30,474 nucleotides of DNA, from positions 1-30,474 of IMG/VR virus record IMGVR_UViG_3300001849_000027, one strand, 5' to 3'. The position numbers and the translations under genes were made by a program. A model generated the notes under the pieces. It saw nothing but the letters and a program-made list of their open reading frames with translations. It did no database searches and was not told the origin of the DNA. The DNA comes from a virus. Positions 1-30,474 of this stretch are shown piece after piece; position 1 is the stretch's first letter, and every line of letters starts with the position of its first letter.

Positions 1-1453
1 CACCAGTCGCACCAGTCGCACCGGTTGCACCCGTAGGAATGGTCAGGTTAAGCGTCTGAGTAGGAGACGTGCCGGTGATCGATGCAGATGCCGACGAGCC
101 AGCAGAGCCGGTCGTAACAGTACCAATCGACAGCGTGTTAGCTGGACCGGCTGCACCGGTATTACCGGTCGGACCTTGTGGGCCTTGTGGACCGGTTGCA
201 CCGGTTGAGCCAGTGGCACCGGTAGCACCAGTTGCGCCAGTTGCACCGGTTGCACCGGTTGCGCCTGTGGGGCCTACAGGGCCTTGGATGCCGCGACCGA
301 ATGGAATCCAGTCAGACCAGTCACCCGAGGTGGACGAGTTCTTGAACGAGATTGCACCGAGGTCCGTCGCGAGGAACGCGAACCCCGTTGCTCGCGCGTT
401 ATAAGTAGACCGGCTGGTGCTCGGCATAATCACGTCAGGGACAAACGAGTTACCCTGAATGCCCTGCGGACCTGTCGTTCCTTGTGGACCGGTAGGACCG
501 GCAGGGCCGGTTGGGCCAGTGGCACCGGTAGCGCCAGTAGCACCCGTTGGACCAGTTGGACCTTGCAGACCAGTTGGACCGGTAGCACCAGTGGCACCCG
601 TGTCGCCCTTGAGTCCACGCGGGATAACAAGGTTCAGCGTCTGGCTGGGCGCGGTTCCAGTGATCGACGCCGTGGCGTTAGACGACGGGTCGCCCGTGGT
701 CACCGTACCAATGCTGAGCGTATTAGCAGGACCGGTGGGGCCGGTTGGGCCGGTTGGACCGGTTGAGCCAGTGCTACCCGTGTCGCCCTTTACGCCTTGC
801 GGGCCAGTAGCGCCGGTTGGGCCTTGTGGACCGGTTGAACCGGTTGCACCGGCTGGACCGATGGTCCCCTGTGGACCAACGGGGCCTTGCAATCCTTGAG
901 GCCCTTGTGGGCCAGTGGGACCCATCGCACCAGTATCACCTTTAGGACCGGTAGCGCCGGTTGCTCCGGCTGGACCGGTTGGGCCGGTTGGACCGGTTGG
1001 ACCGGGTACGCTGATCTGAGCAACAACGAACGCCTTGTTGGCCGCGTCAGTGTCGGCTACCGGAGCAGCGACATTCTTGATGCGCTTATTGTTCGCATCC
1101 CAGTTGCCGGATGGGTCAGTATTAATGCTGCGACCCGCCGTGTCGTTGGCTTCCTGCATACCGTACAGGAGCTGGTTCATCGAAGCGTTGAGCTGGTTTC
1201 CAGTGGTCGCAGCGCCGTTAGAGTAGACAACCTTCGGTGAACTCAAGTCCGTCCGCCGCTCGATGCGAATGGAGTCGCCATTGGCAAGCGGAGCGGACAG
1301 ACGGATGAGATTGGGGTTGACGAAGGTGTAGGTAACGGAACCACCAGTTCGAGTAACAACGACCTCATCGGTGCTCTGATAAGAGAACGGCACTGCGAAG
1401 TCGGTGGTAGTTCCGTTTCCGTTGTAAGTAATGTAGGTGTTATAAAAGGTCAT
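1..1453 (-). CDS. Tail fibre protein, T7 gp17-like N-terminus with collagen-like repeats (partial, 3' end outside window)
   Basis: Host-recognition fibre. The ATG at 1453 follows the gp16-like gene by 2 bp, with AGGA about 7 bases upstream. Residues 1 to about 145 resemble the T7 fibre N-terminal domain that docks the fibre on the tail (starts [14 protein letters not shown]; has the [19 protein letters not shown]-type segment before the shaft). The shaft is collagen-like Gly-X-Y repeats, mostly GPT, GAT and GPQ, at about 736-1008, 458-619, 150-289 and 1-37. These are interrupted by two copies of one non-collagen module ([11 protein letters not shown] ... ASITGT ... QTLNL.IP) at about 620-735 and 38-149. 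A third, unrelated insert at about 290-457 contains [12 protein letters not shown]. The reading frame is open to position 1, so the receptor-binding tip is not seen. Confidence 0.9.
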
Positions 1454-16216: not shown

Positions 16217-16411
16217 CTATTCTCCTAACATATTTTTTCGTTGTTCTTGATGGAGCAAACGGAGGTGTCTAATGACACCCACCGCCCCACGGTTCATCCA
16301 GATTTTTCTAGAGTCGTCTGACGGCTCTGGTGCCTGATCTGGGTGCAGGCGTTCCAAATATTCAAGTAGCGCGTCATCGACGAATGGAAGACGCTGCGTA
16401 TTAAACTCCAC
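16217..16411 (-). CDS. Hypothetical protein (64 aa) overlapping the RNR stop
   Basis: Reads from a GTG at 16411 that overlaps the last codons of the ribonucleotide reductase gene. GGAGG lies five bases upstream, inside the reductase tail. The protein is acidic in its first half (FVDDALLEYLERLHPDQ) and basic in the second (GAVGVIRHLRLLHQEQRKN). It ends two bases before the polyproline gene. I do not recognise the family. The good ribosome site and tight packing support it as a gene. Confidence 0.7.
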   Translation of the reverse strand: MEFNTQRLPFVDDALLEYLERLHPDQAPEPSDDSRKIWMNRGAVGVIRHLRLLHQEQRKNMLGE

Positions 16412-18080
16412 ACGAACCTCCCTTTCCGGTGATGTCGCAGATGTCGTGCGTCTGCACGCCTTCTTCAAACTCTTCACCGAGAGCGTTCTTGGCTTCTGTG
16501 TAAGAGATCGCAGTAAGTGGCTGTCCGCCACGAGCACCGTCTGGGTAGCACGTAAAGCCACGGAGACGATGTGCGTACTTTGCTAGAGTGTCAGCAAAAG
16601 CACGGACAGTATCAGAATTATTGAGCTTGCTACCCCAAGACGGGAGATTGATTGTTGAGCTAATTGATTGATCGACATAGTCCTGAACATCAGCTTGGAA
16701 CTTGATGCGCCGTTCGACAGATGTTGCGAGGTCAAGTGCGCTTTCAATCTCTGTGGGCTTAACGCCATAGAGATCGATGAGTTCTTGAGCCGCCGAGTCA
16801 ACGACATACTGGTAATGCCATTTGCTGTTTTTCAGATATCGCCGCTTGTAAGCAACTGCAAACAGAGGCTCAACGCCAGTTGTAGTACCAGCAAGAATGC
16901 CAATGGTCCCTGTAGGAGCGACAGCGCGTACAGCCACAGGGCGGCCAACACTGAGATGAGCAGAAAAAGAATTACTCGTGTCATTCGATACACCTTTGTA
17001 AACCGACAGCCACTTATGTAGCTCCGGTGTAACTTCGTATTTCGAACCGCGTTTAATAAGCCACTCATGTAGACCCATGACGCCAAGGCCAAGGCGACGG
17101 TTTTTTTCGCGGATTTGATAGACCTTGTCATAAGGAAGTTGTGCCTTCAGTGTGCCACACAAGAGAAACTGTACCGCTAGTGAGACAACATCGCGCAATT
17201 CAGATATGTCTTCGATGCGACCAAAGTTCAGAGAGCCAAGGTTGCACACGTCGCTGTCATCAGCGCTGGTCACCTCGGTGCAAGCGTTGCGTAGCGTTTC
17301 GTTTTCTTTGTCAAAGAAGTTGAACGAGAACCCCGGTTCAGCAGTCTGAAGCGCCTGTTCAACATTCTTCAAAAACACTTCGCCTACCTCGCCAGTCTCC
17401 CAGTAATTGAGCAACCACGAAGTATCGTAGTTGACGGAGATGTTGGTCATGTCCAACGGGGCAGGGAAGTTGAAATCGGTTTGCTTTACGTCCCACAGGG
17501 TTGAGCCGGTGGAACCAATCTTCATGCTGTGCCAGTCCTTCGCTTTCACGAAGTACATCACGTCGCCGTGTTTCCAATTTAGCGAAGCGTAGATTGCCGA
17601 GCGGCGAGAACCACCCTGCATGACGTTGCGGCCAAGCTCGTTGATCATCAGCATCTTCGGAATTGGCCCAGAAGCCACACCGCCTGTGCGCCCTAGACGC
17701 GCACCGTTCGGACGGTAAACGCTGTAATCGATGCCAATGCCACCGCCAGTCATCAGGCAGCTTTCGGCTTTCCAGCTCAGGTTAGCCCAATCCTCGCGCG
17801 TGTCTTCTTCGGCCCGCAGGAGGTAACAGTTGTTGAAGAACTTAGCCTTTCGACCAGCGTAATAAAGATAGCGACCACCGGGAATGAACTTCAAATCCTG
17901 CATGTAGTTTGTGAGCTGATCGCAATCGGTCTTGGTCATGTGCTCGGAGCACACATCCTCGACGAGGGTTCGACAAAGGTCCGCCCACGTTTCACATCCT
18001 TCGTGAGCGTACTTTTGTTTAAAGATGGTCTCCGAGAATTGAGACCGGAACATTGGATTGGCATTGGACCTGAACGACAT
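16401..18080 (-). CDS. Adenosylcobalamin-dependent (class II) ribonucleoside-triphosphate reductase
   Basis: A 559-residue monomeric class II reductase that makes deoxynucleotides for phage DNA synthesis using vitamin B12. Active-site residues are visible: C85 (FFNNCYLL), the N265-A-C267-T-E269 radical-site motif, C279 (DVCNLGSLN) and a C-terminal redox pair C548/C557 (CDITGKGGSCGV). No small (NrdB-like) subunit gene is present, as expected for class II. AGGGG lies four bases before the ATG. Placement just before the portal region resembles the cyanopodophages, which also carry a class II enzyme. The host, or its surroundings, must supply cobalamin. Confidence 0.95.
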   Translation of the reverse strand: MSFRSNANPMFRSQFSETIFKQKYAHEGCETWADLCRTLVEDVCSEHMTKTDCDQLTNYMQDLKFIPGGRYLYYAGRKAKFFNNCYLLRAEEDTREDWANLSWKAESCLMTGGGIGIDYSVYRPNGARLGRTGGVASGPIPKMLMINELGRNVMQGGSRRSAIYASLNWKHGDVMYFVKAKDWHSMKIGSTGSTLWDVKQTDFNFPAPLDMTNISVNYDTSWLLNYWETGEVGEVFLKNVEQALQTAEPGFSFNFFDKENETLRNACTEVTSADDSDVCNLGSLNFGRIEDISELRDVVSLAVQFLLCGTLKAQLPYDKVYQIREKNRRLGLGVMGLHEWLIKRGSKYEVTPELHKWLSVYKGVSNDTSNSFSAHLSVGRPVAVRAVAPTGTIGILAGTTTGVEPLFAVAYKRRYLKNSKWHYQYVVDSAAQELIDLYGVKPTEIESALDLATSVERRIKFQADVQDYVDQSISSTINLPSWGSKLNNSDTVRAFADTLAKYAHRLRGFTCYPDGARGGQPLTAISYTEAKNALGEEFEEGVQTHDICDITGKGGSCGV

Positions 18081-23772: not shown

Positions 23773-24037
23773 CCGCAGTCTCCTCAAGCTCATCGCTCTC
23801 GGTGGAAGACGAATGGACTTTACCGAAGTGGCTGCAAGCTCGGAGTTCTTCAACGTAGGTGAACCCAGCCGCTTGGAGAAACTCAACCATCTCTCGCAAC
23901 ACATGAGGCAGATAGGTTGCGTCTTCGTCTTCAATAGTTCGGCTAATCGAGGTCGTGTTCTTTCCAATTCGGTTATCAAACCGCATTGTGATCCGGTCGA
24001 AGTCTTCAAGGTCTTCTTCGTTGAAAAGTCCGTACAT
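23753..24037 (-). CDS. Hypothetical protein (94 aa) in the slot of T7 lysozyme
   Basis: Begins MYGLFNEEDLEDFDRITMRF and contains a helix LPHVLREMVEFLQAAGFTYV, with an acidic C-terminal tail. Similar short acidic proteins lie beside endonuclease I or primase genes in other T7-like phages, but no function is known to me. AAGGG lies nine bases before the ATG, which is four bases after the endonuclease stop. Its last 20 bases overlap the helicase start and supply the helicase ribosome site. T7 has the amidase gp3.5 here; this protein has no amidase motifs. Confidence 0.75.
   Translation of the reverse strand: MYGLFNEEDLEDFDRITMRFDNRIGKNTTSISRTIEDEDATYLPHVLREMVEFLQAAGFTYVEELRACSHFGKVHSSSTESDELEETAGGEVHA
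23780..23785 (-). promoter_or_regulatory. Strong ribosome binding site selecting a GTG start for the primase-helicase
   Basis: GAGGAG on the minus strand, seven bases before the GTG at 23772 and inside the 3' end of the preceding gene. It favours this start over the in-frame ATG at 23793, which has only a weak site. Confidence 0.6.
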
Positions 24038-24041
24038 GCGC

Positions 24042-24464
24042 TTAGCCCTTTGGTTGGAGCCACGCGGGCGGAATGGATTTATCCGCAAAGATGAACCCGT
24101 TTTTTTCACACCACATGGCGTAGGTGGTTTTGCTCTGCTTACTGATACGCTCGGCACTTCTCGAAAAAACAAACCTGATGTCGAGGCTCGGGTGTTGCTG
24201 CTTCACGAGCAGATGCTTCTGGCGATCTGCGGTCAGGAAGCGACCCTTGGTCTCAACGATGATTTGACTCTGATCAGGTCGAGTGATGACAAAGTCGGGG
24301 CGGTACTTCGACCACTTCGCTGGCCGCAAATATTCGATGAAAGTTTCCTCGTATTCGAAAGGAACGCCTGCATCGAGAAGCGACTGCGCGATGGTTTCTT
24401 CTAGCCCCGACCGGTAACCAAGCTCAGAACGCTGGGCGTTCGTCGGCTTGCGGCGAAGCTGCAT
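24042..24464 (-). CDS. Endonuclease I (Holliday-junction resolvase), T7 gp3-like
   Basis: A 140-residue protein (T7 gp3 is 149 aa) that cuts branched DNA and host DNA. All four catalytic positions of the T7 enzyme are present: E22 (RSGLEE), D57 (YRPDF), E71 and K73 (IIVETKG). The following blocks RQKHLLVKQQHPSLDIRFVF and FADKSIPPAWL are close to T7. The first 41 bases overlap the single-stranded-DNA-binding protein gene. Confidence 0.95.
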   Translation of the reverse strand: MQLRRKPTNAQRSELGYRSGLEETIAQSLLDAGVPFEYEETFIEYLRPAKWSKYRPDFVITRPDQSQIIVETKGRFLTADRQKHLLVKQQHPSLDIRFVFSRSAERISKQSKTTYAMWCEKNGFIFADKSIPPAWLQPKG

Positions 24465-25047
24465 TCGCGAAACTCACTGCTGTGTTGTTATTATTGTCGT
24501 CCTCGTCAGCCATGAACGTACCGCCGTCAACGGCGTCAAAGCCTGATGCACTGCGTTCGATCAGGTCGATGACTTGGACTTCCTTGAGGTTGAGCCGCGC
24601 ACTCTTCTGCGAGACCGAAATGTAGCCAAGGCAACGAATAGTGCTGCCAGAGGTAAGATAGAGGTCAGACTGGACAGGACGCCCCTTCGCGTCAAAGAAG
24701 AGGATTTTGTTGGGCGAGCCATTCTTCAACCGTCCGTAGGCCTTGAACTTGAACTCGATCTGACCGGTCTTCTCTCCAGTTTCCTTTTCGACGTGTTCTC
24801 GGTACGGCAAGAACTCTGGCGTGATCCCCGCTTCTTTGATGGTCGCGTTGATCTGCTCGATCATTGGCTGCGCTTCCTTAATAGGAACGAGCAGAGACGT
24901 ATCGAACGATCCGTTGACCGCGTCAGGCACGGAGCGGCCCTGCGCCTGCGAGTACGTGTAGGGCTGATCGAGGCGCGGGTAGCGAGCGATGCCCTTCGGC
25001 GACATGAAATTGGCGAATGCCTTCTTAATTTTCTTCTGAGTGACCAT
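24424..25047 (-). CDS. Single-stranded DNA-binding protein, T7 gp2.5-like
   Basis: A 207-residue protein in the T7 gene 2.5 position (T7 232 aa) that coats single-stranded DNA and recruits polymerase and helicase. The body shows FANFMSPKGIARYPRLDQPY, KIKAYGRLKNG-like and RLNLKEVQVIDLI segments typical of the OB fold in this family. An acidic stretch (ADEDDNNNN) precedes the end and the last residue is Phe, a feature essential in T7 gp2.5. A modest GGA site precedes the ATG. Confidence 0.92.
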   Translation of the reverse strand: MVTQKKIKKAFANFMSPKGIARYPRLDQPYTYSQAQGRSVPDAVNGSFDTSLLVPIKEAQPMIEQINATIKEAGITPEFLPYREHVEKETGEKTGQIEFKFKAYGRLKNGSPNKILFFDAKGRPVQSDLYLTSGSTIRCLGYISVSQKSARLNLKEVQVIDLIERSASGFDAVDGGTFMADEDDNNNNTAVSFANAASPQADERPAF

Positions 25048-25067
25048 TTTGTGTGTTTCCGTTGTCG

Positions 25068-25241
25068 TTAAATCTTGTCCCAGAGCTTCTGGAGGTAGTC
25101 TTCCAGCTCCGGTCCCTTGAGTGTTTTGACCTTCTTGTTGAAGCGTTCGACGCTGTCACCTCGGATGAGGCCATCCTTGAGTGCATCTCGAACGATCCTG
25201 ACGATCTGAGGCATGAGGTCGTGGTCCATTGTGTTCTGCAT
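25068..25241 (-). CDS. Small hypothetical protein (57 aa) after the RNA polymerase
   Basis: Reads MQNTMDHDLMPQIVRIVRDA, then a basic helical segment (RFNKKVKTLK) and PELEDYLQKLWDKI. Predicted all-helical; not recognised. Start uncertain: ATG at 25241, ATG at 25229 or GTG at 25250, none with a clear ribosome site. It fills the gap between the polymerase stop and the ssDNA-binding protein gene. The helical, charged composition supports coding. Confidence 0.65.
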   Translation of the reverse strand: MQNTMDHDLMPQIVRIVRDALKDGLIRGDSVERFNKKVKTLKGPELEDYLQKLWDKI

Positions 25242-25261
25242 GAGTATCACATGTGGGACGA

Positions 25262-27748
25262 TTAGGAAAAAAAGAAGTCGTTGTGCATGACGCCATCAAG
25301 ATCGAGCGTCCCCTTTGAGGGTGGGGGCGGCAGATCGAGCGATGGGTCAAGACGAGAGATCAAGTCGGTTAGCGGGTCGTGATTTGTGTACATATCGATA
25401 AACGCTGGTTTGACGCATTCGGAGATGAGGGTCGGCAACTGCGCCACCGGCACTCCAAACGAGTCGTGGATCATTCCGTACTGAGTGATGCTTTTGTCCA
25501 AACCTCGCATCACCGATGCACGCAACAGGTTGGCATCGAGGCTATGGACGAAGTTAGGAGCGAGTGCGAGCGCCATGTCTTTCGAGGACACTCGGTTAGA
25601 CGGGTCGTAGATGGTGAGACCAACGCGAGCGTTGCCGTCTAGCCAAGTCGCAACGATGGACTTCTTGAGGTCCGGTCGATAGTGGCGAACGACGAAGCCA
25701 TCAGGGGTCTTCCACGTGATCGACTTTTCGAACAACGAAAGATCACGCTTGGCTACGTTGGCCCACTTGCTGTGAGCCTTGGCAACCTCGTTCAAAAAGC
25801 GCATGCCCTCCTTGCCCCTTATGACCACGCGGTCAATTGCGTCCCATATGAGTTGACTGAGCACGACGATGTGACGCGAGTGAACGAAAGGATCGTTGTG
25901 ATCCCACGGACAGGCGTGGCCGTCCTTGATCTTCTCGGTGACTGCGTCTCGTGTGTAATTCATGCACGAGGAAAACGTCCCCGAATATGGGACAACCATG
26001 ACTTGACGCTTGGTGATCTTGCGGTCGATGCCGAAGCGGACGAGAGCCTTGGCGATGGCTGCGTCTGCGTGGTCAGGATCGACGCCGATGGCAACACATC
26101 GGTCGATCACCACGTCAGCAACATCTTGATAGATGTCCTGCCGGGGCAGGCCGGGTACGAGATTAACGGAGCGTCCGCCCACCTCATCGCGGAACATTGC
26201 ACTGTAGTGCTGTAGGCCAGAACACGTGGCGTCCACGTAGCCGACGTAGTGCGAACGATAGCCATACCCGTGGTTCCAAAAGTCCGACCACTCTAAACAA
26301 AAGCGAAGGAACATGAACGGCTCGGAGGCTTTGGTCCAGCGGAGGTCATGCTTCGGGTCAGCAGCGATCTCAAAGATCATTTGCTCATTGTCTTGCGCCC
26401 AATGGACGCGGTCCTGAAGTGGGACCTTGTCGTGGCCGAAAGCGTTAGCACCGGTGATAGCGAGCCAACACACTGCGTCCTCAGTGTCGATGGACATCGG
26501 CTCAGAGAACTCTAGCAGCGCTCGTGCATAGTCCGGCCCCTGCGGGTTGAGGAAGGCAGGAAGCGGATAGGCACGTCCTCGGCTGTCGAGGTTGTGCGGA
26601 AAGAAGACGTGATCGAAGCGCTTGTATTGCTCTGCGAGCGTAATAGTCGCGAAGCAAGCGAGGCGTTTGCTGATGACCTCTCGGTTGTACGAGTGGATCA
26701 GGAAGCAGATCTTGTCGTGTGCCTTGGTGATCTCCTCGTCCACCTTGTATCCAGCCGGTGCCGGGGGCAGGGGCTTCGGATCGGAGGGAGGCAGTCCTGC
26801 AATGTCTCCGCCTCGGTCGAGAGCGAAGTAAGACAACACCTCCAGCATTCGGTCGTTGATCTGCCACGCTGTCTCTTGCAGAGCGTTGATCGCCGGGATG
26901 ATCTGAGACCAATCCTGATGCTCAACCAGCTCGGTGGCGTGCCGTCGCTGATGCGTACCCTTGACTAACGGGTAATGCTTAATCGCATTCGAGATGTACC
27001 CACCGCGATATAGGTTTTCTTCCGACCACGGCTTAGGTGGCACCACCATCGGGCGGTAGAGCGTGAAGTCTAAGGCTCTGCTGCGGATGGCATTAGCGAA
27101 GTGGTCAACGAGGGTCGGAGCTGGGTTGACGTAAGCGTCAGTCGATTTGAACTCGACCAACCCAGTGGTGTCCCTGAACAACACCAGCAAGGCATAGCCG
27201 ACCACCAGCTTTTGTCTTGTGCTCCAAGAGTTCCACTCGATTTGCTCAGAGTGGAAGTAATTAAGGATGGTACGCCGTCGCCATGCACGTGGGTAGGTAC
27301 GCTTGTCGAACGTCTTGAACAGCTTCTTGAGCAAGGCTCTGCGCTGCTTATCACTAGCGAAGTGACGTATACGGACCTCATCATGCAGCAGCTCGCCGAT
27401 GCGTATGCACAGCGAAACCTTCTTCACCCGTCGTTTGACCGGGAGGGCCAGAGCGTTGAACAAAGCCTTACTAAAGAGATGACTTATAACGCTCGGCTCT
27501 AGATGGCTCTCTTGTAACAATCTGTGAGCCACTACCCGCCTGCCGACGGTGTTAGGCGAGGTGAGGATACTGATCAGACCTGAGATGAACTGAGTGTTGA
27601 CCTCGGCTGAACGGGTGTACCGGATACCGAGCTTGCTCTCAGCCCAAGCCCCCCGCTGGAGGGCTTTGATGTTATCGTTAGTGAGACGAGTTTTAGCTTC
27701 AGCTAGGATTGTATTCTCGATCTGAACTTGATGATCGATCATGGTCAT
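25262..27748 (-). CDS. Single-subunit DNA-directed RNA polymerase, T7 gp1-like
   Basis: An 828-residue polymerase (T7 883 aa) that transcribes the replication and virion genes from phage promoters. Catalytic residues are all present: D506 (YVDATCSGLQHYSAMFRDEV), K580 and Y588 (KRQVMVVPYSG, same eight-residue spacing as K631-Y639 in T7) and D762 (IHDSFG). APNFVHSLDANLLR matches the T7 block. The aromatic C-terminal end (NDFFFS) corresponds to T7's FAFA foot. T7's G640, after the active-site Tyr, is S589 here. The gene follows a 250-bp repeat-rich leader. ATG at 27748; an ATG at 27742 is also possible. Confidence 0.97.
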   Translation of the reverse strand: MTMIDHQVQIENTILAEAKTRLTNDNIKALQRGAWAESKLGIRYTRSAEVNTQFISGLISILTSPNTVGRRVVAHRLLQESHLEPSVISHLFSKALFNALALPVKRRVKKVSLCIRIGELLHDEVRIRHFASDKQRRALLKKLFKTFDKRTYPRAWRRRTILNYFHSEQIEWNSWSTRQKLVVGYALLVLFRDTTGLVEFKSTDAYVNPAPTLVDHFANAIRSRALDFTLYRPMVVPPKPWSEENLYRGGYISNAIKHYPLVKGTHQRRHATELVEHQDWSQIIPAINALQETAWQINDRMLEVLSYFALDRGGDIAGLPPSDPKPLPPAPAGYKVDEEITKAHDKICFLIHSYNREVISKRLACFATITLAEQYKRFDHVFFPHNLDSRGRAYPLPAFLNPQGPDYARALLEFSEPMSIDTEDAVCWLAITGANAFGHDKVPLQDRVHWAQDNEQMIFEIAADPKHDLRWTKASEPFMFLRFCLEWSDFWNHGYGYRSHYVGYVDATCSGLQHYSAMFRDEVGGRSVNLVPGLPRQDIYQDVADVVIDRCVAIGVDPDHADAAIAKALVRFGIDRKITKRQVMVVPYSGTFSSCMNYTRDAVTEKIKDGHACPWDHNDPFVHSRHIVVLSQLIWDAIDRVVIRGKEGMRFLNEVAKAHSKWANVAKRDLSLFEKSITWKTPDGFVVRHYRPDLKKSIVATWLDGNARVGLTIYDPSNRVSSKDMALALAPNFVHSLDANLLRASVMRGLDKSITQYGMIHDSFGVPVAQLPTLISECVKPAFIDMYTNHDPLTDLISRLDPSLDLPPPPSKGTLDLDGVMHNDFFFS

Positions 27749-27765
27749 GTTGAGGTGACCCTGTG

Positions 27766-27805
27766 TTTAACTAGGTTAAACTAGGTTAACTAGGTTTAAC
27801 TCGGG
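27766..27805. repeat. Four tandem 10-bp repeats just before the RNA polymerase start
   Basis: On the plus strand: TTTAACTAGG, TTAAACTAGG, TTAACTAGG, TTTAACTCGG, at 9-10 bp spacing, i.e. one helical turn. They end 18 bp from the polymerase start codon. The spacing suggests cooperative protein binding on one DNA face. Confidence 0.85.
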
Positions 27806-27900
27806 GTTAGGCCTCTAGTTGATGCTAGAAGTACTACCCCAAGATAACTTGTGTTCACTTGTGTTTAACTAACGGCTGGGGCCGGGGCTTTACTTTAGGT

Positions 27901-27919
27901 GTATAACCAAAGGTTATAC
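27901..27919. repeat. Perfect 8-bp inverted repeat
   Basis: GTATAACC at 27901-27908 and GGTTATAC at 27912-27919, three bases apart. Each arm carries TATAAC. No T-run follows on either strand, so it looks more like an operator than a terminator. Confidence 0.75.
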
Positions 27920-27926
27920 TTTAGTT

Positions 27927-27947
27927 TAACCTAGTTTAACTAGGTTA
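27927..27947. repeat. 10-bp inverted repeat containing TAGTTTAACTAG
   Basis: TAACCTAGTT at 27927-27936 and AACTAGGTTA at 27938-27947 around one central base. Its centre, TAGTTTAACTAG (27932-27943), recurs exactly on the other strand at 28431-28442 beside the integrase. Confidence 0.85.
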
Positions 27948-27999
27948 TACCCCCTCAGTATCACCCCGTGTTTCCCCCTTCCCCTAATGGTGGTAGTAA

Positions 28000-28239
28000 T
28001 TACCACTCGTGGTTAAGTGTTTGAAAATCCTCGGTTAACCAGAGTTCCCGTATAAAGTCGTTTCCGTCCCGAAAGCGGGTGTGCAGTCTGAACGTCCGTT
28101 CACCTAGGAGGACGTGATTGGTGCCGACTTCGACGAGGGTGAAGGACAGGTGGACCTCGTCCTCCTTTATGACGGCGGTGACTAACTTGAAGTCCTTACG
28201 TGTCAAACAAAGGTTCAGACATTCCATTGTGTTGTGCAT
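28000..28239 (-). CDS. Hypothetical protein (79 aa) between attachment site and RNA polymerase
   Basis: Starts MHNTMECLNLCLTRKDFKLV, then beta-strand-like segments (EVHLSFTLVEVGTNHVLLGE, RTFRLHTRF) and ends LNHEW. Not recognised. GAGGA lies eight bases before the ATG at 28239. The frame is open further upstream to 28422, but that part is the antisense of the tRNA fragment (giving GLEPPCGGIKI, a well-known artefact), so I exclude it. The stop codon lies in a small inverted repeat (TGGTA...TACCA). Confidence 0.7.
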   Translation of the reverse strand: MHNTMECLNLCLTRKDFKLVTAVIKEDEVHLSFTLVEVGTNHVLLGERTFRLHTRFRDGNDFIRELWLTEDFQTLNHEW

Positions 28240-28335
28240 CTGAAGTGTCCTCGGTTGTGGTAGTTTCTCATTTCCACATCGAGGAAAAGGCTGTGGTAAG
28301 AAGGGGTTAGACCTCGGTGGAGCAAAACCGGCTGC

Positions 28336-28385
28336 CCGGATTTTGATTCCGCCACACGGAGGTTCGAGTCCTCCCGCCCCAGCCA
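28336..28385 (+). other. attP core: 3' half of a tRNA-Gln(TTG) gene
   Basis: On the plus strand the sequence runs from the anticodon arm (loop TTTTGAT, anticodon TTG) through a perfect T-arm (GGAGG, TTCGAGT, CCTCC), the acceptor 3' strand CGCCCCA, discriminator G, and CCA. The bases before 28336 do not form a D-arm or the matching acceptor 5' strand, so it is only a tRNA 3' end. It lies just past the 3' end of the integrase, the usual place for an attachment site. On integration it would rebuild the host tRNA-Gln gene. Confidence 0.88.
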
Positions 28386-28430
28386 AATCCGCAATGGGTA
28401 TCAGCAGTGTACGCTTGCACAAGTAAAACG

Positions 28431-28442
28431 CTAGTTAAACTA
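28431..28442 (-). repeat. Copy of the 12-bp motif TAGTTTAACTAG near the integrase
   Basis: CTAGTTAAACTA on the plus strand, the exact reverse complement of 27932-27943. With the polymerase-side copies it flanks the attP core, which fits arm-type integrase sites or a shared operator. Confidence 0.75.
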
Positions 28443-28446
28443 TTGA

Positions 28447-28462
28447 AGTGTCAACAGTGTCA
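28447..28462. repeat. Direct repeat AGTGTCA, 9-bp period
   Basis: AGTGTCA at 28447-28453 and again at 28456-28462, the second overlapping the integrase stop codon. Possible integrase or excisionase site; short enough to be chance. Confidence 0.5.
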
Positions 28463-29398
28463 CGTTGAGCGCCGGTTCAGCACGGTCAGCCCTGTTTTCA
28501 GGTCGTTGACGTTGAGATGCGTGTACCTCTTCGTCATGGTTGGCGTGCTGTGCCCCAACCACATTTGCAGTCGGAACGGGTCGATCTCGCGGGCCAGCCG
28601 GGTAGCGAGCGTATGCCTGAGCGCGTGGGCCACGGCCTGCTTGTCGTGACCTAGGCCCGCGGCTGCTCGCGCTGTTCGCCAATGCTTGTTGAACGTGCTG
28701 TAGACCACCGGCTCAAACGGGCAGGAGTAGCCCCGGTCGCGCATGTAGCTGAGCGCGGTGAGAGCGGGTTGAGCGAGTGGGACCGAGCGAGGCCGGTCAG
28801 TCTTGGTTCGCCAGAATGTGACCACGTCGTCCTTGATGTCATCCCAGCGCAGCGCGAGGGCCTCGCCTACACGGCACCCTGTGTAGAGGAGGAAGATAGT
28901 GAACTGGCGGTACGGCGGTTCGAGGTGACCGACGATCCGGTCCTCCTCCTCGATGGTGTACTCGCGCACCCGCCCCACCGGGATGCGCCGAAAAGGTATC
29001 TTTGGAGCCTGCGTGATGATGTCCTCGTCCACCGCGTAGGTCATCAGCTTGGAGATCACCGACAGCTTGGAATTGATGGTTTGAGCCGCGTTGCCCTCGT
29101 CTTCGAGTTCTTCGATCAGCCGCCGGACGCACTTCCGATCCACGCCGATGATCGGCATGGATGGGCCGAGCCTCGCTATCATTTCAAGCGTGATCCGAGC
29201 GCAGTTCCTGTAGTTGCGCGTCTTATTCCATATCACCTCGGACCAACGCGGCCACATCGCACCGACGGTCGCGTGTTGTTTTGCTGGCAGGCCCGCTTCA
29301 AAGTCGCGGGCTTCCTGCTCGGATTTAAACGAGCGCCGAACGCGCTTGCCGTCTTCCCAGACGACGCCTTGCCAACTGCCACCGCGCGGAGTGACCAT
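28460..29398 (-). CDS. int: Tyrosine-recombinase integrase
   Basis: A 312-residue site-specific recombinase for integration and excision. The catalytic set is complete: R176 (TGCRVGEALALRW), K199 (RTKTDRPRSVPL), H258-x-x-R261 (HALRHTLATRL), H283 (WLGHS) and the nucleophile Y292 (KRYTHL). The N-terminal about 40 residues look like an AP2-type arm-binding region (GSWQGVVWEDGKRVRRSFKS), followed by a core-binding helical domain. The ATG at 29398 is 5 bases after the last tiny gene of the early operon, so int is expressed with it. The tRNA-derived core lies directly downstream. Confidence 0.96.
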   Translation of the reverse strand: MVTPRGGSWQGVVWEDGKRVRRSFKSEQEARDFEAGLPAKQHATVGAMWPRWSEVIWNKTRNYRNCARITLEMIARLGPSMPIIGVDRKCVRRLIEELEDEGNAAQTINSKLSVISKLMTYAVDEDIITQAPKIPFRRIPVGRVREYTIEEEDRIVGHLEPPYRQFTIFLLYTGCRVGEALALRWDDIKDDVVTFWRTKTDRPRSVPLAQPALTALSYMRDRGYSCPFEPVVYSTFNKHWRTARAAAGLGHDKQAVAHALRHTLATRLAREIDPFRLQMWLGHSTPTMTKRYTHLNVNDLKTGLTVLNRRST

Positions 29399-29403
29399 GA
29401 CGG

Positions 29404-29514
29404 CTACTCTACTTCTCGCGCGTTACTAGAATTGCTTGAACTTATCAGAGATATTGCCCCCACAATTAACGCAGCAGCAATCATCTTCCCTACAACTAGA
29501 AGTGCAAGTGTCAT
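29404..29514 (-). CDS. Tiny membrane protein (36 aa)
   Basis: Starts MTLALLVVGKMIAAALIVGA; residues 2-25 form one predicted membrane helix, with a short Ser/Asn-rich polar tail. GGAG lies eight bases before the ATG at 29514, which overlaps the stop of the previous tiny gene (ATGA). Function unknown; small holin-like, signalling or exclusion roles are all possible. Confidence 0.68.
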   Translation of the reverse strand: MTLALLVVGKMIAAALIVGAISLISSSNSSNAREVE

Positions 29515-29630
29515 CGATGTTTCTCCACACCTCTGAGTCGTCGGTGGTCGTCTGCTGCAACGCAGCGTGCATACATCACGAGACCCCACAGCACGACGGC
29601 GGCTTGCAAACCGATGGTCAAAAGCTTCAT
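29511..29630 (-). CDS. Tiny membrane protein (39 aa)
   Basis: Starts MKLLTIGLQAAVVLWGLVMY; residues 3-20 form one predicted membrane helix, followed by a basic tail (RRLRGVEKHR). The positive tail predicts a cytoplasmic C-terminus. The ATG overlaps the stop of the winged helix gene (ATGA) and its stop overlaps the next start (ATGA), so it is coupled on both sides. Confidence 0.68.
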   Translation of the reverse strand: MKLLTIGLQAAVVLWGLVMYARCVAADDHRRLRGVEKHR

Positions 29631-29950
29631 CGGATTTTCTCTTGTAGCTGCGCGTAGAACTCTCGACCCTTCTTCGTCAGTTCAAGCCTGCGATACCGCA
29701 TGTCATCAGGATCGATCTCGCGTCGGATGAAGCCCTTGCCGGGGCGGCGGTCGAAGGTTCGCTCCGTCCACCACGATACGTTCCGGGATGCGCCGCTGTT
29801 TGAATAGCCAAGCGCCTCTTCCAGTTCGTTTTGTGTGCATGTTCCTCGGCTCGCCACGAAGAAAAACGTCAGCAACATGTCGATAGTGACTTGGCCGTCG
29901 AAGTCATTCTTCATCCAAGTCAGGAGGCTCAAGAAACTCGATGGGGTCAT
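29627..29950 (-). CDS. MarR-like winged helix protein
   Basis: 107 residues. The pattern VTIDMLLTFFFVASRGTCTQ, then ELEEALGYSNSGASRNVSWW, a wing (GFIRREIDPDDMRYRRLELT) and the last helix (KKGREFYAQL) is a MarR-type winged helix with the recognition helix around SNSGASRNVS. Similar proteins occur in early regions of integrase-bearing T7-like phages. It could regulate int or the RNA polymerase leader. GGAG lies nine bases before the ATG at 29950, giving a 47-bp overlap with the gene before it; a start at 29914 is the alternative but has no ribosome site. Confidence 0.83.
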   Translation of the reverse strand: MTPSSFLSLLTWMKNDFDGQVTIDMLLTFFFVASRGTCTQNELEEALGYSNSGASRNVSWWTERTFDRRPGKGFIRREIDPDDMRYRRLELTKKGREFYAQLQEKIR

Positions 29951-30053
29951 ATCCCAGCACTCCGGTTAATGTTTCAAGCAGCCCGACCCTATCGCGAGTG
30001 AGGAGGTCGCGCAATAGTTTATTTATCTCGATTTCGTGAATGGTGTCGGTCAT
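29904..30053 (-). CDS. Small acidic protein (49 aa)
   Basis: Starts MTDTIHEIEINKLLRDLLTR, followed by a helix (VGLLETLTGVLGYD) and a very acidic end (PPDLDEE). Not recognised. The ribosome site is weak (GTGAG). Its end overlaps the winged helix gene by 47 bp, in line with the dense overlaps of this operon. Confidence 0.6.
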   Translation of the reverse strand: MTDTIHEIEINKLLRDLLTRDRVGLLETLTGVLGYDPIEFLEPPDLDEE

Positions 30054-30066
30054 GGCGAAGCTCACT

Positions 30067-30171
30067 TCATGGGACAATTAGGGCCACGACCGTCACGAAA
30101 AAGGCGAGGGTCAGGAACGACAGTAAGTCGCTGGCATCGCGCTTGAGACGCTCCTCGATGTATTCATTCAC
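30067..30171 (-). CDS. Tiny membrane protein (34 aa), GTG start
   Basis: Amphipathic charged N-terminus (NEYIEERLKRDASD) and a membrane helix at about residues 16-33 (LLSFLTLAFFVTVVALIV). GAGGAGG at 30180-30186 lies eight bases before the GTG at 30171, one of the best ribosome sites in the window. Ends 13 bases before the acidic protein gene. Confidence 0.65.
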   Translation of the reverse strand: MNEYIEERLKRDASDLLSFLTLAFFVTVVALIVP

Positions 30172-30174
30172 GGG

Positions 30175-30333
30175 TTAGTCCTCCTCACCTGATACATAGT
30201 CAAGGTCACACGTCACCTCTTCACCACAGCACTCACAGCGCAGGAATAGCGTGTCCTTCGCGCCTGTCTCTGGGCAGGGCAAAACAATCTCGTCGTCACA
30301 CTCCGGGCAGTGATAATGAGCTGTATCCGTCAT
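30175..30333 (-). CDS. Small zinc-ribbon-like protein (52 aa)
   Basis: Starts MTDTAHYHCPECDDEIVLPC and continues to CECC and CDLDYVSGEED. The pairs CPEC and CECC, about 20 residues apart, fit a four-Cys zinc ribbon. GGAG lies eight bases before the ATG at 30333, which overlaps the previous stop (ATGA). The 3' end contains the ribosome site of the next tiny gene. Confidence 0.78.
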   Translation of the reverse strand: MTDTAHYHCPECDDEIVLPCPETGAKDTLFLRCECCGEEVTCDLDYVSGEED

Positions 30334-30474
30334 TGCTTTCTCTCCAGCATCTTTCGGGCCTCGGCCCTCGTTACATTCAGGCACCGGGCGACCTTGATGA
30401 TTGTCCGGTTTCGCTTTTTGTATGCCGCGTTCGCCGCGCGATATAGGTTTTTGTGGCTCCCGTAATACACGCGT
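30330..30474 (-). CDS. Partial helix-turn-helix-like protein (5' end outside window or GTG start at 30470)
   Basis: The frame is open from the right edge and ends TGA at 30330, overlapping the next start. The visible 47 residues include YRAANAAYKKRNRTIIKVAR and CLNVTRAEARKMLERKQ, which look like a helix-turn-helix (helix, turn at CLNVTR, recognition helix). It is either an early regulator or the C-terminus of a longer protein. Confidence 0.6.
   Translation of the reverse strand, partial: RVYYGSHKNLYRAANAAYKKRNRTIIKVARCLNVTRAEARKMLERKQ

Follow-up and report, generated by a model that had tools for sequence, protein, structure and literature searches.

Gene order around the candidate attachment site

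The DNA considered here comprises the 30,474 bp of IMG/VR record IMGVR_UViG_3300001849_000027 (the whole stretch analysed, hereafter the window), a linear virus record in which end repeats are absent. Genes for a MarR-type regulator, a tyrosine integrase (int) and a T7-type RNA polymerase lie here in succession, with a fragment of a tRNA gene, the candidate phage attachment site (attP), between the last two. The phage genes are all on the minus strand, so that transcription comes from the right, and read in that direction they run from small early genes through the regulator, int, the tRNA-like stretch, an open reading frame (ORF) of 79 amino acids and a repeat-rich gap to the RNA polymerase, and on to the replication and virion genes. 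The integrase (28460-29398, minus strand; 312 amino acids) matches phrog_1 (E 7.6e-60) and Pfam PF00589 (Phage_integrase; E 3.3e-23), its reading frame is of full length and it lies directly upstream of the polymerase gene (25262-27748, minus strand), whose 828-amino-acid product is a single-subunit enzyme of the T7 type (phrog_414, E 5.2e-190 over the full length).

At 28337-28385, on the plus strand, lies the 3' half of a tRNA-Gln(TTG) gene including its CCA, identical at 47 of 49 positions to two alphaproteobacterial genomes. The similarity breaks off sharply at either side, and because only half a tRNA gene is present, ARAGORN calls no whole tRNA anywhere in the window. The fragment looks as attP cores in tRNA genes usually do. 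It is the basis of the attP assignment, and int would presumably be the enzyme that uses it. An initial annotation of this DNA had proposed the order int, tRNA-Gln 3' half and RNA polymerase with the genes on one strand, which the two phrog matches and the tRNA match confirm, and its limits for the tRNA half (28336-28385) were right to one base. Since the fragment reads on the plus strand and the phage genes on the minus, a tRNA-Gln gene restored by integration would stand beside int and convergent with it, as had also been deduced there. The same phage occurs in another metagenome (IMG/VR contig L003; polymerase 100% identical), and that contig starts (L003:1-50) a single base inward of the 3' end of the core's tRNA sequence; an assembly fork at a core shared by free and integrated forms may explain this start, or it may be chance.

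The gene at 29627-29950 (minus strand) encodes a regulator of 107 amino acids that matches phrog_9665 (E 3.2e-24), a family linked to int in 9 of 9 reference phages and in 16 of 16 sequences of a second set, both sets including the window's own sequence. Its structural model is a winged helix (pLDDT 94) that, among solved structures, best matches E. coli MarR on operator DNA, and its Pfam MarR scores fall under the curated cut-off. The product is a likely repressor of the phage polymerase, a role already proposed for this family in temperate T7-like phages. The initial annotation had recognised no CI-type repressor, and none was found in the window, but it had missed this MarR-type gene. The right end of the window cuts the early region, and the inventory of regulators covers the genes inside the 30,474 bp.

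Together, the polymerase, int, the phrog_9665 regulator, the tRNA-derived attP and the gene set are those of temperate T7-like phages (Autographiviridae with a marR-int cassette), and the window holds the larger part of such a phage's genome, of the known marR-int-attP-polymerase type. The gene set, all on the minus strand, comprises a single-stranded DNA-binding protein, endonuclease, primase/helicase, DNA polymerase and exonuclease, with a head-tail adaptor, scaffold, capsid, and tail and internal virion proteins. Identity of the RNA polymerase to named phages reaches at most 36% (closest are the roseophages CRP-804/118/403 and LUZ100), and to IMG/VR relatives it is 46-61%. HTVC019P (a pelagiphage), CRP-804/403 (roseophages), LUZ100 (Pseudomonas), Pasto (Rhizobium) and YIMV22061 (Limnohabitans) are likewise temperate T7-like phages, and they share with the window a phrog_9665 MarR-type gene beside a tyrosine integrase, followed by a single-subunit polymerase on one strand. 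Pasto and YIMV22061 also have a tRNA gene between int and polymerase, as the window does. The window differs from the named temperate T7-like phages in that its polymerase is preceded by an additional 79-amino-acid gene and a densely packed array of palindromes.

Prophage layout among relatives

No prophage of the window's own phage was found, and its relatives were therefore used to test the layout that integration at the core would produce. In viral_contigs, single-protein queries with int or the polymerase gave no relative or the same phage only, and a polymerase alignment was required. With an eight-polymerase alignment as query, genome_contigs yielded 80 loci. Of the genomes holding them, thirty were examined, picked mainly because the polymerase sat on a long contig and no integrase lay in the preceding 10 kb, a selection that favours the predicted layout; in 20 of the 30 an integrase match lies on the contig and strand of the polymerase, with 38.3-44.4 kb from polymerase start to int end, and in the remaining 10 int is on another contig or none is clear. 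A MarR-like ORF adjoins int in all 20 of these prophages, and in eight a repeat of 35-60 bp, carrying tRNA-Leu or tRNA-Cys sequence, joins the two ends. Eight proviral IMG/VR records, including L117 (polymerase 51% identical), likewise have int and polymerase at opposite ends. Finding marR-int at one prophage end and the polymerase at the other is common, but not universal. Near relatives have other tRNA cores at the same place; the tRNA-Gln core of the window is absent among the tRNA targets met in relatives, which are tRNA-Leu or tRNA-Cys.

At the T7-like prophage loci L036, L042, L044, L052, L032 and L068, mostly in Gastranaerophilales and Vampirovibrionales bins, either an integrase precedes the polymerase by a few kb or two or three MarR-like genes stand directly upstream of it.

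The orientation of the restored tRNA varies. In L081, L059 and L038 it stands beside int and faces it, and in L045 and L046 the orientation is opposite, an intact tRNA-Leu lying 601 and 209 bp, respectively, upstream of the polymerase match and reading into it. The gap between tRNA and polymerase holds one terminator-like site in L045, at chance level, and none in L046. Not every member of the group would therefore have its polymerase shielded by position alone.

The gap before the polymerase gene

The interval between the polymerase and the 79-amino-acid gene (27749-27999) is operator-like. Its GTTTAAC/CTAG units and palindromes, the latter with arms of 10, 8 and 7 bp, fall into two clusters, 27762-27806 and 27902-27950. 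Within the window the cluster motif is confined to this gap, with a further half-site copy beyond the core at 28431-28442. A fixed half-site, GTNNAC, showed no enrichment in the window, and a motif-free count of repeated 7-mer pairs was adopted for that reason; it gave 94 pairs for the 260 bp that precede the polymerase and at most 22 in each of 1,410 comparison windows, from which the collagen-like left end was excluded. Among near relatives, L115, L116, L118 and L124 also have an excess of repeats before the polymerase, with differing sequences, and the roseophages CRP-118/403 have a repeat array there likewise. L014 (polymerase 47% identical) is not outstanding in its 7-mer pair count, and carries GTGTTTAACCTAGTGTATAACC shortly before its polymerase. 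From its sequence the array looks like an operator region, and, lying on the polymerase side of the core, it would remain with the polymerase after integration.

The 79-amino-acid gene (28000-28239, minus strand) is conserved between core and polymerase, with homologues of 75-80 amino acids at the same place in four relatives (L115:252-491, L117:1862-2080, L118:2066-2290 and L124:34-273) and a family motif GxRxFxxxTxFxDxxDxxxELW. PHROG and Pfam give no family for the protein. It was considered as a hidden repressor and rejected: its model (pLDDT 91) is alpha-beta-beta-beta-alpha without a helix-turn-helix, and a fold search of the PDB gave no significant match. In the Desulfovibrio phage ProddE, an annotated CI-like repressor gene (L011:4867-5637), encoded on the other strand, lies between int and polymerase, the place that the window's core, small gene and array take.

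Elsewhere in the window, the collagen-like gene at the left end (2-1453, minus strand), with dense 9-bp repeats, probably encodes a fibre or surface protein, and a ribonucleotide reductase large-subunit gene (16401-18080, minus strand) is present, in a T7-like phage.

A probable MarR-type switch and the possible role of integration

Two parts of this arrangement have been described before: attP downstream of int and, as a proposal, control of the polymerase by MarR. In LUZ100 a single host-type promoter serves both marR and int as one transcript, with a terminator after int and a phage promoter before the polymerase. Its authors, who credit earlier work for the MarR idea, proposed that read-through first activates the polymerase and that, in lysogeny, MarR binds close to the promoter of the polymerase; they obtained no stable lysogens (PMC10134795). 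The cyanophage P-SSP7 shares the window's order of MarR-like gene (gp0.7), int and polymerase, and in P-SSP7 and S-TIP37 attP lies downstream of int, with a tRNA-Leu core where the window has tRNA-Gln, and integration has been shown experimentally (PMC8776855). P-SSP7 gp0.7, which takes its name from T7 gp0.7, is related to the MarR-type regulator of LUZ100 (38% identity). We had treated the cyanophages as lacking a MarR gene, and dropped that view because P-SSP7 carries one; the study of their integration reported no homologues of known repressors despite gp0.7 (PMC8776855).

We consider it probable that the window's phage uses a MarR-controlled switch to which integration contributes by cutting the polymerase off from marR-int read-through. 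In the infecting phage, the host polymerase would transcribe the early genes, marR and int, and might continue across attP into the phage polymerase gene; such host read-through is possible, as the initial annotation had suggested, since a search of the coding strand from int to the polymerase revealed no terminator-like site. The integrase would then recombine the tRNA-Gln core, so that in the prophage marR and int would keep their upstream region at one end and the polymerase would lie at the other, beside host DNA. Lysogeny would most likely be held by the MarR-type protein bound to the palindrome array before the polymerase, and loss of marR-int read-through would help, with repressor being made without polymerase.

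The sharper proposition that integration is itself the transcription uncoupler, one host-driven marR-int-polymerase transcript being cut at attP so that the prophage makes repressor without polymerase, is a tentative one that we hold as possible but doubtful. A functional analogue is the integration-dependent immunity of mycobacteriophages such as BPs and Brujita, where attP lies inside the repressor gene and integration is part of the regulatory change. The window differs in this respect: its core (28337-28385) lies outside marR (29627-29950), and integration would therefore leave the MarR protein unaltered. An uncoupling role of integration was not found in the T7-like phage literature examined, which did not extend to key earlier work.

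That insertion alone is the off switch, the polymerase losing its early promoter and no repressor being needed, was the central proposal of the initial annotation, which had named as counter-evidence a repressor gene elsewhere or a host-type promoter between attP and polymerase. Its prediction that int and polymerase would come to lie at opposite ends holds in the 20 genome prophages and eight provirus records, and the stretch from core to polymerase showed no sigma-70-like promoter, both of which speak for silencing by insertion. A repressor candidate, however, is present in the MarR-type gene, of a family linked to int throughout the group; the operator-like array would remain with the polymerase; and in L045 and L046 the restored tRNA genes read into it. 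Furthermore, cyanophages with the same order integrate without stable lysogeny, although the tests, made with S-TIP37, are not clean, as lysis could come from other copies of the phage in that cell (PMC8776855). Insertion by itself is probably not the off switch, and we regard that account as unlikely.

The array might instead serve the integrase complex, as arm-type or excisionase sites, with MarR acting elsewhere. Phased repeats are typical of arm-type sites and of excisionase factors, and the additional half-site copy at 28431-28442 lies across the core. Such a role is nonetheless hard to reconcile with clusters some 390-620 bp from the core and a conserved gene in between, and the clusters of relatives adjoin the polymerase start, as they do in L014, which shows no core within 440 bp; we think it improbable. 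It could also be that the tRNA fragment is a relic, integration having been lost or being transient as in T7-like cyanophages (PMC8776855), and that the gene order has no regulatory role. A tRNA-Gln prophage was not found, and the core has no exact match in the sampled genomes, as a relic would lead one to expect; but int is open over its full length, 47 of 49 tRNA positions are kept in the core, and the near relatives with other tRNA cores at the same place include one provirus. That account is, on this evidence, very unlikely.

Against a MarR-controlled switch aided by integration stand several observations. The prophage of the window's phage, and its host, were not found in the genomes and viral contigs searched: the exact core has no match in viral_contigs, and a host search with the core pattern in 385 Alphaproteobacteria genomes and 300 of a further order found only two genomes, with two mismatches each. 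The layout was counted in genomes whose selection favours it, and at a few loci on long contigs, L036 and L052 among them, an integrase-like gene lies no more than 10 kb ahead of the polymerase. The close relatives L117, L119, L121, L122 and L123 lack the array, as do the 20 genome prophages, and we rejected it as a general feature before the polymerase; binding of MarR to it is itself inferred. A sigma-70 promoter scan of 24000-30474 found none, though the promoters of the host may not fit the consensus, and nothing convincing emerged as a phage promoter common to the polymerase upstream region and other intergenic regions, so that promoter positions in the proposed switch are presumed. Finally, the P-SSP7 type of order, MarR-like gene included, was not accompanied by stable lysogens in the cyanophage tests.

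LUZ100 has given no stable lysogens, and T7-like cyanophages integrate without lysogeny. That attP recurrently separates the repressor-integrase operon from the polymerase suggests a division of labour in which integration would end read-through and MarR would block the remainder. If integration contributes, moving attP should alter the stability of lysogens while the repressor is left untouched. Were integration indeed to act as the uncoupler, the position of attP would be under selection, throughout temperate T7-like phages, as one element of the switch between lysis and lysogeny.

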